Shown here: positions 756 through 5,093 of the stretch, in pieces
Position numbering within the stretch: position 1 is the stretch's first letter
Layout of the letters: each line of letters opens with the position of its first letter
Source: a bacterium
Lineage (GTDB): Bacteria > ARS69
NCBI GenBank assembly: GCA_025774865.1
Contig: JALGZO010000213.1
Location: 1 to 11,121, forward strand
Reading direction: 5' to 3'
DNA: 11,121 nucleotides
The notes under the pieces: model-generated
Told to the model about the DNA's origin: nothing
The model's input: only the letters and a program-made list of their open reading frames with translations
The model's database searches: none
Translations under genes and position numbers: made by a program

Positions 756-1820
756 ATGGAATCGATACTCCGACCTGCCCCCGATTCCGGCCCCTGGCCC
801 TTCCGGCCGTGGATGTGCGCAGAACGGGGCGGTCGCCCCGAGTCGTACCACGAGGGCATCCTCGTCGTGGTGGACGATCACGGTAACGTCCGGGCTCGAT
901 GGGGGGATCCCGCGTGGCCGGCCTACTTGAGGTCGAGTCTCAAGATGGTTCAGGCGCTGCCGCTCGTGGAGTCGGGGGCCGCCGATGAGTTCCGGCTGAC
1001 CCCCCGTCACCTCGCGGTCACATGTGCGTCACACAGCGGCGAGCTTTCTCACGTGACGGCGATCGGCGAGATTCTCGAGCGAGCTGGCCTCGATCCGTCG
1101 TTCCTCCGGTGTGGAGCCCACGAGCCGCTCGACCGGACGAGCCGCAACGACCTCGTGCGGTGCGGCGAGGTGCCGCGCCCCATCCACAACAACTGCTCGG
1201 GGAAGCACGCCGGCATGCTCGCGACGTGTTCGCACCTCGGTCTCGATCCGCTGACTTACCAGAGCCCTGATCATCCCCTGCAGCGGGAGATCGCGAGCGT
1301 GCTCGGGGAGCTCACCGACCTCGGCCCCGACGGCATCGAGCACGCGATCGACGGGTGCGGCGTCCCGACGTTTCGCGTGCCGCTCGCCAGCTTCGCCCTG
1401 GCGCTGGCCCGGTTCGCCAGCGGGCGCGGCCCCGCGCGCGAGCATCGCGCGGCGGCGCAACGGCTGTTCGACGCCATGTTCCGCCACGCGGACCTGGTCG
1501 CCGGCACGGCTCGGGTCTGCACCGAGCTCGCGCGGGCCGCGAACCGACCCGTGATCGCGAAGGGTGGCGCCGAGGGCCTCTACGGAGTCGCCTGGCGGGA
1601 GGAGTCCGGGCAAGGGGTCGCTCTCGTCGCGAAGGCGGCGGCCGGAGACGAACGCGGCCGGGACTTCGCGGTCACGGAGGCGATGCGACAGCTGGGACTA
1701 CTGGACGCGAAGGGGCTCGAACGGATGCGCCCGTTCCACTCGGCTCCCCTCCGCAACCACGCGGGCACCGAGGTGGGCCGCCTGGTCGCGCTGTTCAATC
1801 TGAACGGTGCGGGGGGCTAG
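756..1820 (+). CDS. L-asparaginase, PF06089 (asparaginase II / Rhizobium ReAV-type) family
   Basis: This 354-residue protein is predicted to hydrolyse L-asparagine to aspartate and ammonia in the cytosol; no signal peptide is visible. It belongs to the serine-hydrolase-like asparaginase family typified by Rhizobium etli ReAV, unrelated to E. coli AnsA/AnsB. Hallmarks seen are the N-terminal PESYHEG segment, R59-S-S-L-K63, A91-S-H-S-G-E, HNNCSGKHAGM (C147, K150), DGCGVP (D199, C201) and AKGGAEG (K269). The spacings S60-K63, S60-C147, C147-K150 and C147-C201 equal those I recall for ReAV (S48, K51, C135, K138, C189), with a constant offset of 12. That supports an intact Ser/Lys catalytic pair and the Cys/Lys zinc site. 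I chose the ATG at 756, 3 nt after the sulfatase stop; an in-frame ATG at 813 is possible and would give a slightly short N-terminus. No strong Shine-Dalgarno is visible, which fits translational coupling to the upstream gene. Confidence 0.92.
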   Translation: MESILRPAPDSGPWPFRPWMCAERGGRPESYHEGILVVVDDHGNVRARWGDPAWPAYLRSSLKMVQALPLVESGAADEFRLTPRHLAVTCASHSGELSHVTAIGEILERAGLDPSFLRCGAHEPLDRTSRNDLVRCGEVPRPIHNNCSGKHAGMLATCSHLGLDPLTYQSPDHPLQREIASVLGELTDLGPDGIEHAIDGCGVPTFRVPLASFALALARFASGRGPAREHRAAAQRLFDAMFRHADLVAGTARVCTELARAANRPVIAKGGAEGLYGVAWREESGQGVALVAKAAAGDERGRDFAVTEAMRQLGLLDAKGLERMRPFHSAPLRNHAGTEVGRLVALFNLNGAGG

Positions 1821-1822
1821 CT

Positions 1823-1957
1823 TCGGTGAAGGGTCGGGACTCCGGGGTCGCTCTCGCTCCGTAGCTGCGCTCCTCGTCGAATATGCAAGCCCCAGGAAGG
1901 GGACTGCGGTGCGCCATGCGGCTCGAGAGCGACCCCGGAGTCCCGACCCTTCACCGA
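1823..1957. repeat. Long inverted-repeat element between convergent genes (34-bp perfect arms)
   Basis: The left arm 1823-1856 is an exact reverse complement of the right arm 1924-1957, and 67 nt separate them (1857-1923). The arms start with TCGGTGAAGGGTCGGGACTC on the left. The centre has its own small hairpin, CCCC-AGGAA-GGGG at about 1890-1902. Imperfect pairing also continues inside the arms (CCGTAGCTGCGC against GCGCCATGCGG). The element begins 2 nt after the asparaginase stop and ends 9 nt before the stop of the convergent FG-GAP gene, so it fills nearly the whole gap. RNA from either strand would fold into a very stable hairpin, so it may act as a bidirectional terminator or 3' stabiliser. 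It lacks the T-tract of a classical intrinsic terminator. Its length and internal structure look more like a dispersed REP/BIME- or MITE-like repeat than a simple terminator. No target-site duplication is evident. Confidence 0.85.
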
Positions 1958-1966
1958 CCACCCACG

Positions 1967-3700
1967 TCAGCGCAGCAGCTGCACCGTCGTGGTGGCGCGT
2001 CCGCCCACGCCCCTCGCTTGCACGAAGTAAGCGCCAGCCGGCAGTAACCGCCCTTCCCCGTCGCGCCCGTCCCACCGAAGGTTCCCGCTCTCGGGAGCGT
2101 CCGCCTCCCACAGACGTCGCACCCGGCGGCCGTCCACCGAGAAGACGTCCACTTCGATCGCCCCGTCGAGTCCGCTCATCTGGAGGCTCGTGCCGGCGAA
2201 GGCCGGCACCGGATTCGGCGCCGCGATGAGCCGCGCCCCGACCGAGCCGAGAGGAACGACCTGCACGTCCACCGGCGGCGGATCACCGTTGTAGAAGACA
2301 TAGAGCGTGTCCGCGAACTCGTCGACGACCGAAAAGTCGAGATCGCCGTCCATGTCGAGATCGTGGAGCCAGGGGTAGGAGCCGGTGTCGTCCACGAGCA
2401 GGGTCGCTTGCAACACCAACTGACCGGTTCCGTCGTTCGTGAAGACCTGCGCGTTCCCCGACTGGAAGTTCGAAGCGGTCGCGTCGATGTCGCCGTCTCC
2501 GTCCACGTCGGCGCAGAATACGCCGATGGGGAAGAACCCGGTGACCGCGACCAGCTTCGTGGGGAAGTTCCCGGCACCGTCGTTCACCAGGACGTGGATC
2601 TTGTCATTGAACGACGTCACCGAAATGACGTCGAGATCGCCATCACCGTCCATGTCGGCGCGGTCCATGTCCCACGGGCCGTCTCCGATTCGAAAGCGGC
2701 CGGTGGTGGTAAACGTACCGTCGCCGTCGTTGCGCATCACGGTGAGGCTGTCCGCCGTCTGGCAAGCGACGGCGATGTCGAGATGACCGTCGCCGTCGAA
2801 GTCCCCCGTCCGGATCGCGAACGGCTGACGTTGCACGTCGCTGTACGGGACTCCGGCGCCGAACCCGCCGTTGCCCTGGTTGTAGAAGAGAAAGACCTGG
2901 TCCGTGTTGCTCGACGTCGCGCAGAGATCGATGTCGTTGTCCCCGTCGAAGTCGCCGCCGTGCACCTGGCGGGTCGTCGCGCCGGCAGAATGCTGGATGC
3001 TCGGGGCGAACGTGCCATCGCCGTGGTTCAGGCTGACCGACATCGTACTGGAGCCGATGTCGGCGGTGGCCAGGTCGATGTCGCCGTCGTTGTCAAAGTC
3101 CTCCCCGAACACGGACGACGGGACGTTGCCGACCCCGTAGTCGGTGTGGCTCGTGAAGAATCCGCGGCCGTTGTCGTTCAGAAAGACCGAGAAGTCGTTC
3201 GTCCCTTCGTTCGGGGCGACCACATCCGGGTGACCGTCGTTGTCGACATCGCCGCCGTAGATGAAGTACGGCACGTCCGACGCCCCGTAGGCGAATGGAG
3301 TGCTCCAAGCGAGCGCGGCCGGGGCGGCCTCGATCGTGAAGCCGAAGTAGTGTCCGCCCGGGAGACCACTGCCGCCCGCCGTCTGCACGTCGCTGCGCAA
3401 GTTCACGTGAACGAGCTCACCCGGCAGCCAGTCGGTCGTGGCGTCGAAGAAGAGCGTGTTTCCGAGCACGCTCACCGCGCCCGTGGCCGGGCCCGACATC
3501 GTTCCGAACACCCGAAACGCGGCGGCGGGTGGGACTACCGGCGGAGCGTCGAAGGTGACGGAGATCTGCATGAGACTCTCCGACACGTTCCGCTCGTACG
3601 GAGCGGGGGAGGTCGACACGACTTCCAGGGCGGCGGCGGGCGTTGCGGCCGCGAGGGCCGCGAACGGGAGCGCGATCACGAGCACGAGCGGTCGGGTCAT
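1967..3700 (-). CDS. Secreted FG-GAP/VCBS seven-repeat beta-propeller protein with C-terminal FlgD/T9SS-like domain
   Basis: The 577-residue product is predicted to be exported. Residues 1-24 form a signal peptide (MTRP, a hydrophobic core, then PAAA before LEVV). Residues about 26-125 resemble a Big_5/SbsA Ig-like domain (VVSTSPAPYERNVSE, VTFDAPP, WLPGELVHVNL). Seven FG-GAP/VCBS calcium-binding loops follow at residues 151, 201, 250, 300, 349, 398 and 447 (DVDNDGHPDV, DFDNDGDIDL and similar), spaced 49-50 residues, which fits a seven-bladed propeller. Residues about 490-577 (APNP, VDVFSVDGRRVRRLW, WDGRDGEGRLLPAGAYFV) form a FlgD-like/T9SS-type C-terminal domain that may serve in sorting. The start at 3700 is set by GGAGGA 8 nt upstream and by the signal peptide; the longer open frame to 3886 would cross the promoter region and bury the signal peptide. 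Likely cell-surface or extracellular; no catalytic residues are recognisable and the ligand is unknown. Confidence 0.9.
   Translation of the reverse strand: MTRPLVLVIALPFAALAAATPAAALEVVSTSPAPYERNVSESLMQISVTFDAPPVVPPAAAFRVFGTMSGPATGAVSVLGNTLFFDATTDWLPGELVHVNLRSDVQTAGGSGLPGGHYFGFTIEAAPAALAWSTPFAYGASDVPYFIYGGDVDNDGHPDVVAPNEGTNDFSVFLNDNGRGFFTSHTDYGVGNVPSSVFGEDFDNDGDIDLATADIGSSTMSVSLNHGDGTFAPSIQHSAGATTRQVHGGDFDGDNDIDLCATSSNTDQVFLFYNQGNGGFGAGVPYSDVQRQPFAIRTGDFDGDGHLDIAVACQTADSLTVMRNDGDGTFTTTGRFRIGDGPWDMDRADMDGDGDLDVISVTSFNDKIHVLVNDGAGNFPTKLVAVTGFFPIGVFCADVDGDGDIDATASNFQSGNAQVFTNDGTGQLVLQATLLVDDTGSYPWLHDLDMDGDLDFSVVDEFADTLYVFYNGDPPPVDVQVVPLGSVGARLIAAPNPVPAFAGTSLQMSGLDGAIEVDVFSVDGRRVRRLWEADAPESGNLRWDGRDGEGRLLPAGAYFVQARGVGGRATTTVQLLR
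2333..3250 (-). repeat. Seven tandem VCBS coding repeats, period 147-150 bp
   Basis: The seven calcium-loop motifs of the FG-GAP protein recur every 147 or 150 bp. On the + strand each shows as a block rich in GTC/GCC such as GATCGCCGTCCATGTCGAGA, near 2340, 2487, 2634, 2781, 2931, 3078 and 3228. Similarity between units is strong over the D-x-D-x-D-G-x-x-D loop and weaker between loops. The array therefore reflects old intragenic duplication kept by protein structure, not a recent identical tandem array. Confidence 0.8.
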
Positions 3701-3708
3701 CGACTCTC

Positions 3709-3714
3709 TCCTCC
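3709..3714 (-). promoter_or_regulatory. Ribosome binding site GGAGGA of the FG-GAP gene
   Basis: On the minus strand GGAGGA lies 8 nt before the ATG at 3700-3698. It is the strongest Shine-Dalgarno match in the window, and it fixes the start at the signal-peptide methionine rather than further upstream. Confidence 0.8.
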
Positions 3715-3731
3715 GCTTCTGAACACACCGG

Positions 3732-3745
3732 GAGGCCGCGGCCTC
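3732..3745. promoter_or_regulatory. 14-bp perfect palindrome in the leader of the FG-GAP gene (possible operator)
   Basis: GAGGCCGCGGCCTC is its own reverse complement. It lies 32-45 nt upstream of the FG-GAP start codon and downstream of the putative minus-strand promoter, so it would be in the transcribed leader. It could bind a dimeric regulator or form a small RNA hairpin. In GC-rich DNA a palindrome of this size can arise by chance, so the functional call is weak. Confidence 0.3.
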
Positions 3746-3784
3746 TCCGCCTTCTTCCGGCGCTGATTCTCGGGGGGCTTCCCA

Positions 3785-3814
3785 GCTTAACCGCATCGGG
3801 GCTCCCCGTTTGAA
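3785..3814 (-). promoter_or_regulatory. Putative promoter of the FG-GAP gene
   Basis: Read on the minus strand, TTCAAA (3814-3809) and TTAAGC (3790-3785) are separated by 18 nt and sit about 85-115 nt upstream of the start. This is one of the few AT-containing spots in the gap. The spacer contains CGGGG-CT-CCCCG (3797-3808), an interrupted inverted repeat that could be an operator. Both boxes are only moderate sigma-70 matches. Confidence 0.3.
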
Positions 3815-3826
3815 GAAATCGCGCCG

Positions 3827-3855
3827 TGGCCGGTAGGCGGGACCCGTGCTAGGCT
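3827..3855 (+). promoter_or_regulatory. Putative promoter of the apgM-lnt-speA cluster
   Basis: TGGCCG (3827-3832) and TAGGCT (3850-3855) are 17 nt apart. The second box is preceded by TGC, giving an extended -10 look (TGCTAGGCT). Transcription would begin near 3862, leaving a short leader with GAGGG before the ATG at 3885. An alternative GTG start at 3846 would lie inside this promoter, which argues against it. The two divergent promoters would be only about 15 nt apart and could be co-regulated. Confidence 0.4.
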
Positions 3856-3872
3856 GCGCGCGGTCTCGTCCC

Positions 3873-3877
3873 GAGGG
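3873..3877 (+). promoter_or_regulatory. Ribosome binding site GAGGG of apgM
   Basis: GAGGG is 7 nt before the ATG at 3885. It supports that start over the in-frame GTG at 3846, which has no such site. Confidence 0.55.
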
Positions 3878-3884
3878 TTGCCGC

Positions 3885-5093
3885 ATGTCCGACGTCGTGA
3901 CTTCTCTTCTTCACGACAACCATACGAAGATCTTTCTCCTCGTTCTCGACGGGTTGGGCGGCTTGCCCGATCCGCGGTCACGGCAGACGGAGCTGGAGAC
4001 GGCGAAGACGCCGACCCTGGATCGCTGGGCCTCGGAGGGAGCGACCGGCCTGGTTGATCCGGTGGGGCGCGGGATCACCCCCGGAAGCGGCCCCGCCCAC
4101 CTCGCCCTTTTCGGCTACGACCCCATCTCGGAGAACGTCGGGCGCGGCGTCCTCTCCGCGCTGGGCGCCGGTCTGGAGATGACCTCCCGCGACGTGGCCG
4201 CCCGAATCAACTTCGCCACTCGCGACGAAAACGGGGAGATCGTCGACCGGCGCGCCGGCCGGATCGCCTCGGAGGAAGGACGGCGGGTGGCGGAGTTGCT
4301 CGCGAGCGGTGTGAAGATCGACGGGGTCGAACTGACGGTGCGTGCGGAGAAGGAACACCGGGCCGTCGTGGTGTTCCGCGCGGACGGCCTCGGCGGTGAC
4401 GTGTCCGACACCGACCCGCAGGTCACGGGACTGCCGCCGCTCGAAGTACGGCCTTTGACCGACGACGCCGGAGCGAGTCGTATGGCGGAGGTCGCGAACG
4501 AGTTCATCCGACAGGCCCGCGGGATCTTGAAGAACGAGAAGGAGGCCAACGAGGTGCTGCTCCGGGGCTTCGCGGGATGGGATCCACCGCCGAGCTTTCG
4601 CGAGCGTTTCGGACTCCGTGCCGCAGCCGTCGCCATGTACCCGATGTACCGTGGACTCGCGACTCTGGTCGGCATGCGGGTGTTTCCCGAGATGCCGTCG
4701 ATCGAGGCCGAGTTCGACGCATTGCCGGAAGCCCTCGCGGACGCCGATTTCGTGTATCTCCACGTGAAGCAGACCGATAGCGCCGGCGAGGACGGCGACT
4801 TCGGCCGCAAGGTGTCGATTCTCGAGACCGTCGACGGGTTGCTGCCGCGCGTGGAGGAGGCCGGTGCGGATCTCGTCATCGTGACCGGTGACCACTCGAC
4901 GCCGGCCCTCATGAAGTCACACTCCTGGCACCCGGTTCCGATCCTCTTCCGGGGCGGTACCACCTACCGCGACGAGACCGAATCATTCGGTGAGACCGCG
5001 GCTCGCCGCGGCGCGCTCGGTCGATTCCCGTCTCGGGAGATCATGCCGCAGGCGCTCGCCGCGGTCGGTCGACTCAACCGCTTCGGAGCGTAA
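3885..5093 (+). CDS. apgM: 2,3-bisphosphoglycerate-independent phosphoglycerate mutase, archaeal-type (ApgM)
   Basis: The 402-residue cytosolic enzyme interconverts 3- and 2-phosphoglycerate in glycolysis and gluconeogenesis. It has the ApgM architecture (PF01676 metalloenzyme core with PF10143 insert), about 400 residues against about 510 for the GpmI type. Visible motifs are LVLDGLGGLPDP with metal ligand D22, TPGSGPAHLALFGYDP with phosphoryl-accepting S68, VGRGVLSALGAGLEM, the insert domain at about 95-210, HVKQTDSAGEDGD at 293-305, TGDHSTP with D336/H337, and SHSWHPVPI with H345 and H349. At residue 302, E stands where many relatives have His (DeaGHDGD); this may be a subfamily feature. 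I chose ATG 3885 because GAGGG precedes it and the upstream GTG at 3846 overlaps the promoter. It is the first gene of the + strand cluster, and lnt starts 7 nt after its stop. Confidence 0.93.
   Translation: MSDVVTSLLHDNHTKIFLLVLDGLGGLPDPRSRQTELETAKTPTLDRWASEGATGLVDPVGRGITPGSGPAHLALFGYDPISENVGRGVLSALGAGLEMTSRDVAARINFATRDENGEIVDRRAGRIASEEGRRVAELLASGVKIDGVELTVRAEKEHRAVVVFRADGLGGDVSDTDPQVTGLPPLEVRPLTDDAGASRMAEVANEFIRQARGILKNEKEANEVLLRGFAGWDPPPSFRERFGLRAAAVAMYPMYRGLATLVGMRVFPEMPSIEAEFDALPEALADADFVYLHVKQTDSAGEDGDFGRKVSILETVDGLLPRVEEAGADLVIVTGDHSTPALMKSHSWHPVPILFRGGTTYRDETESFGETAARRGALGRFPSREIMPQALAAVGRLNRFGA
3894..3917 (+). other. Hairpin-forming inverted repeat just after the apgM start
   Basis: GTCGTGA (3894-3900) and TCACGAC (3911-3917) are perfect 7-bp arms around a 10-nt pyrimidine loop, CTTCTCTTCT. 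The structure lies within codons 4-11 of apgM, so it could modulate translation initiation. It may be a chance arrangement. Confidence 0.35.

Follow-up and report, generated by a model that had tools for sequence, protein, structure and literature searches.

The stretch of DNA that we analysed (11,121 nt, hereafter the window) contains two convergent genes, encoding an L-asparaginase II (756-1820, forward strand; PF06089, E 9.5e-106) and an FG-GAP repeat protein (1967-3886, reverse strand; PF13517, E 1e-41). Their stop codons (1818-1820 and 1967-1969) are separated by 146 nt, and 135 of these belong to a palindromic element. The arms of the element, at 1823-1856 (left) and 1924-1957 (right) on the forward strand, are 34 bp each and exact reverse complements of one another (34/34); they enclose a 67-nt centre (1857-1923), just as the sequence-only reading had described. 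The element is by a wide margin the longest inverted repeat of the window, and its predicted RNA fold reaches -108.1 kcal/mol, compared with -57.1 +/- 4.8 in shuffled sequences (z = -10.6; 0/200). It is preceded by CTAGCT and followed by CCACCC. The CTAG at 1817-1820 contains the asparaginase stop, lies 2 nt before the left arm and is a possible insertion-site context, although it is present on the left only and no target-site duplication is seen at the window copy. The peptide pattern reported from both strands is also there: the open reading frames at 1807-2229 (forward) and 1698-2111 (reverse) both translate to GEGSGLRGRSR...RERPRSPDPSP, a trivial result since the element is palindromic.

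The position between two convergent stops, judged from the sequence, would fit bidirectional termination, and it is the point in favour of a terminator confined to this one locus. However, no T-tract follows either arm, as had been claimed, and we rejected the classical intrinsic terminator (GC-rich hairpin plus T-tract) because this run of T is missing on both sides. Homologous dispersed copies, described below, refute a single-locus terminator as a complete account, and we give that explanation next to no credence; the window element is not a single-locus feature. The gene arrangement itself varies among relatives. In genome G001 a phosphoglycerate mutase gene (apgM) comes immediately after the asparaginase gene, and the short spacer 3' of the asparaginase gene holds neither a hairpin or element nor an FG-GAP gene. 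The same two genes are likewise neighbours in G003, with the FG-GAP gene apparently absent between them. Since the FG-GAP gene is missing at asparaginase-apgM in G001, and apparently in G003, the convergent arrangement of the window is lineage-specific.

The earlier suggestion that the hairpin belongs to a dispersed palindromic element not described before, to be pursued by BLASTN and covariance-model searches, proved well founded. Searches of the host draft genome (785 contigs, 4.7 Mb; 92.65% complete, 8.3% contamination), from which all copy numbers given here are taken, found the window subfamily at dispersed sites, with 13 near-complete copies besides two fragments, as well as related subfamilies. 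With the window element as DNA query, the match to most copies is confined to positions ~20-116 of the 135. R1, a covariance model trained on the 13 copies, recovers these and the two fragments, and it also matches a second subfamily more weakly (E 1e-7 to 1e-4). This dispersal strongly suggests that the element is mobile. Several copies sit at contig ends. The ends of contigs C72 (L089 6618-7065) and C374 (L091 1-165) hold tandem truncated core copies with flank, and also a separate short tandem repeat.

Conservation in relatives, which the sequence-only reading had proposed to look for, was not found: R1 has no copy in four other genomes of the phylum. The exact core pattern has 7 + 1 matches among 84,980 genomes and viral contigs, a set from which host records were possibly left out; none sits in a hairpin, and we took these as chance. 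Phage records gave no match to the element, and Rfam gave no family at the gathering threshold, with sub-threshold matches to miRNA hairpins only. One R1 match in the distant genome G020 (L050, E 0.0015) was weak and was left out of the count. Positions 1480-1625 of L050, from another family, fold into a large hairpin (CTTGTAGGGGCGGGTC...GGCCGCCCCTACAAG) whose arms are self-complementary and whose base carries GTAG; it resembles a REP dimer, and its likeness to the window element looks superficial.

A core of ~75 nt is common to all copies of the window subfamily; it folds into an internal hairpin, and a 2x2 internal loop lies immediately inward of the arms. In the window this repeat unit, CTCGCTCC...GCGGCTCGAG, lies at 1853-1927 on the forward strand; it comprises the innermost 4 bp of each arm and the 67-nt centre, which is repeated in the 13 genome copies and has the consensus fold. 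Core identity between copies has a mean of 84.6% (12 copies), against 59% for the adjoining 22 nt of arm (12 copies), and the window's arms are locus-specific, with 59% mean identity to those of other copies. A left arm shows 85% complementarity to its own partner (100% in the window), compared with 59.5% to the partners in other copies. When pairs were counted in the alignment, changes on both sides occurred in 26 cells; shuffled alignments gave 6.8 (0/500) and slid partners one to four. Over all subfamilies, arm length ranges from 15 to 41 bp. Arms that vary by locus around a constant core are what one would see if the core had inserted into loops of terminator hairpins that the host already possessed, the private arms being host sequence. 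We consider this very improbable: the arms follow a common theme across copies and subfamilies, and long hairpins without a core are almost lacking in the host contigs read, and 400 kb of G003 contain a single one, located within a gene. Because this common theme persists, the arms probably go back to a single ancestral arm, with concerted drift since then.

Perfect arms had been taken to imply recent origin, ongoing gene conversion or selection on the folded form. Of this, concerted change of the arms holds up, both in the covariation and in an indel shared by two arms; recent origin is not needed, because the cores have diverged to 85% between copies and the arms are still matched within copies. 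The indel concerns contigs C313 and C160, whose flanks are identical over 60 bp. The left arms of the two contigs differ by a 2-bp indel and the right arms by the same one, and one further arm difference restores perfect pairing in one contig. The two are apparently alleles of one site, as represented by draft contigs in a mixed assembly, and the same indel in both arms points to arm-to-arm correction, for example by replication template switching. Mutation by template switching from one palindrome arm to the other is well established and is known to generate and preserve perfect stems (PMC8794818), and it most likely accounts for arms that are matched but private. Perfect stems and simultaneous compensatory changes through arm copying are common to both settings, but the published cases are RNA genes with short stems, whereas here the process is proposed for a dispersed repeat with arms of up to 41 bp. 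Candidate strain alleles within the draft assembly (L084 1-198 and L086 1-194; L102 and L173 1-165; L094 and L176 5629-5784) show a symmetric 2-bp arm indel, loss of a whole hairpin and a possible fusion of the two modules of a second-subfamily unit. In the apparent allele pair C60 and C477, ~187 bp are lost, including the entire hairpin of a second-subfamily unit.

When the genes at the copy sites were tabulated, as had been advised, ten copies of the window subfamily were found 3-147 nt from the stops of unrelated, mostly housekeeping genes (gene calls in other contigs are from a codon-score script and are approximate). TAG accounts for 9 of the 14 stops adjoining these copies, compared with 65 of 261 (25%) elsewhere (P = 0.003, Fisher's test), and for 9 of 19 stops adjoining the second subfamily (P = 0.055). 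The tetranucleotide CTAG is ten-fold depleted in the host genome (117 vs 1197 expected in 388 kb). Of six copies outside convergent gaps, five have their core strand in the sense direction of the neighbouring gene, the exception being L085. A universal sense orientation to the upstream gene was dropped, given this exception, the ambiguity of convergent gaps and a total of five in six informative cases.

Placement close to the stops of unrelated genes, strong arm covariation and the prevailing sense orientation of the core strand (5/6) would all suit a host 3'-UTR RNA element (a terminator, RNase barrier or protein-binding hairpin), in which a conserved apical domain tops a freely varying stem, RNA selection keeps the pairing, and spread is by recombination or duplication. 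RNA selection would allow wobble, however, and across 850 arm pairs (30 elements of host genome G000; cells not all independent) the core-strand mismatches comprise 18 A.C, 2 G.T and 12 others, so that in RNA of the same sense as the upstream gene just 2 of the 32 mismatched arm pairs are G.U. The absence of a T-tract, the lack of copies in the four phylum genomes and a sister family that is plainly a MITE also count against an RNA element of the host, which we regard as unlikely, if worth serious consideration. The wobble is tolerated on the strand opposite the core strand, and this opposite strand folds somewhat better in 26 of 31 elements; if real, this makes the relevant folded strand antisense to the upstream gene. 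We offer tentatively, as a rather doubtful reading, that a conserved apical core is flanked by arms continually rewritten by arm-to-arm copying, and that the biased mismatches mark a protein or process recognising the folded antisense strand, much as some recombination sites act as folded single strands.

The sister subfamilies were examined in 292 kb of host contigs, chosen mostly for carrying copies. Nearly all long hairpins there consist of an arm ending in CTCG, a core of 57-67 nt, and CGAG, and they carry one of at least four cores. Cores 2A and 2B stand head to head, ~100-150 nt apart, within a unit of ~400-450 bp that has terminal inverted repeats (TGTTCCGTCTCGAAAGTC). CTAG flanks many of its ends, and ends with CTAG often lie exactly at TAG stop codons. 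This unit of two inverted hairpin modules, found on host contigs C729, C381, C183, C515, C780, C660, C713, C501 and C406 (pieces L092, L093, L100, L098, L101, L095, L105, L094 and L109), is a MITE; what links it to the window subfamily is a common architecture, together with model scores that are weak (E 1e-7 to 1e-4). Genome G002, of the same family, has a different MITE-like repeat with ends CTAGCCYGCATTTCTCACCAG, also with CTAG (L153 10893-10972; L154 4458-4652; L159 7287-7468 and 12875-13060).

Like MITEs, the window subfamily is non-coding and has many copies dispersed over a single genome. Conserved terminal inverted repeats are found in the sister subfamily; in the window subfamily the inverted arms differ in sequence from copy to copy, and no common terminal repeat lies outside them. 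A search of the host draft genome for DDE_Tnp_1 found none. One DDE_3 gene is present, with no matching terminal inverted repeats within the 3.4 kb read around it. Prokaryotic MITEs, including ERIC and Correia elements, are short non-coding dispersed intergenic units that give strong transcript hairpins, some of them at gene 3' ends (PMC10969869). The host elements are likewise short, dispersed, intergenic and hairpin-forming, and the sister subfamily has terminal inverted repeats and a repeated CTAG target. They differ in being GC-rich rather than AT-rich, and whereas the ends of MITEs are normally conserved, the window subfamily varies most in its outer arms and is conserved in its centre.

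The sequence-only reading had called the element REP/BIME- or MITE-like; the MITE half of this fits the sister subfamily, and REP in the RAYT sense does not stand. REPs are intergenic, lie beside gene 3' ends, form head-to-head pairs with conserved spacers and have TAG stops at their ends (PMC3733652), features that would also agree with mobilisation of the host element by a RAYT (Y1 tyrosine transposase). The likeness to REP, BIME and REPIN elements (PMC3733652, PMC3116915) extends to extragenic palindromes near the 3' ends of convergent or co-directional genes, often as inverted pairs and often beside TAG stops, and the window subfamily does occupy such extragenic 3'-end sites. However, the transposase search that the same reading had advised found no Y1 protein (PF01797) at E <= 0.001 in the 92.65%-complete host draft, with positive controls. 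The GTAG/CGTC tag is absent from the window arms, and GTAG occurs near some other copies solely as stop codon context. Single arms are not palindromic (folding of 26 isolated arms gave a mean z of -0.02 relative to dinucleotide shuffles), nor are their sequences conserved. The host fold is also much longer (100-135 nt), with a dozen copies rather than hundreds. We therefore rejected a RAYT-type REP/BIME, which we judge improbable.

We favour, as the probable account, a copy of a lineage-restricted, non-coding and non-autonomous dispersed element of MITE/REP-like kind whose arms diverge in concert. This account is supported by dispersed copies with a conserved core, matched private arms and covariation; by a sister MITE with terminal inverted repeats and CTAG, together with the excess of TAG stops (P = 0.003); and by the element-free spacer after the asparaginase gene of G001 and the apparent allele pair that differs by the same 2-bp indel in both arms. 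It is weakened because no transposase tied to the family was found and no target-site duplication is seen at the window copy, with CTAG on its left only, because the window subfamily lacks a common terminal repeat outside the arms, and because the allele pair comes from draft contigs of a mixed assembly and the two subfamilies are linked by architecture and weak scores. Each copy would stem from a non-autonomous unit transposing to a (C)TAG site or next to one, and in this CTAG-poor genome such sites would often be stop codons. Replication template switching (quasi-palindrome correction) would then carry a mutation from one arm to its partner, giving fast drift between loci with matching kept within each locus. 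The RNA hairpin may cap the 3' ends of both convergent transcripts, for protection or termination, as proposed for REP/ERIC-type elements.

The element looks like a previously undescribed variety of small mobile palindrome, a kind of repeat with a long record in bacteria, and it adds a class of 3'-end hairpin elements from a very poorly sampled bacterial phylum. It may account for contig breaks and for spurious ORFs in assemblies of this kind. The family also provides a natural data set, with many loci, on how palindrome arms evolve in concert, a process so far deduced mostly from short stems in RNA or from individual mutation events.
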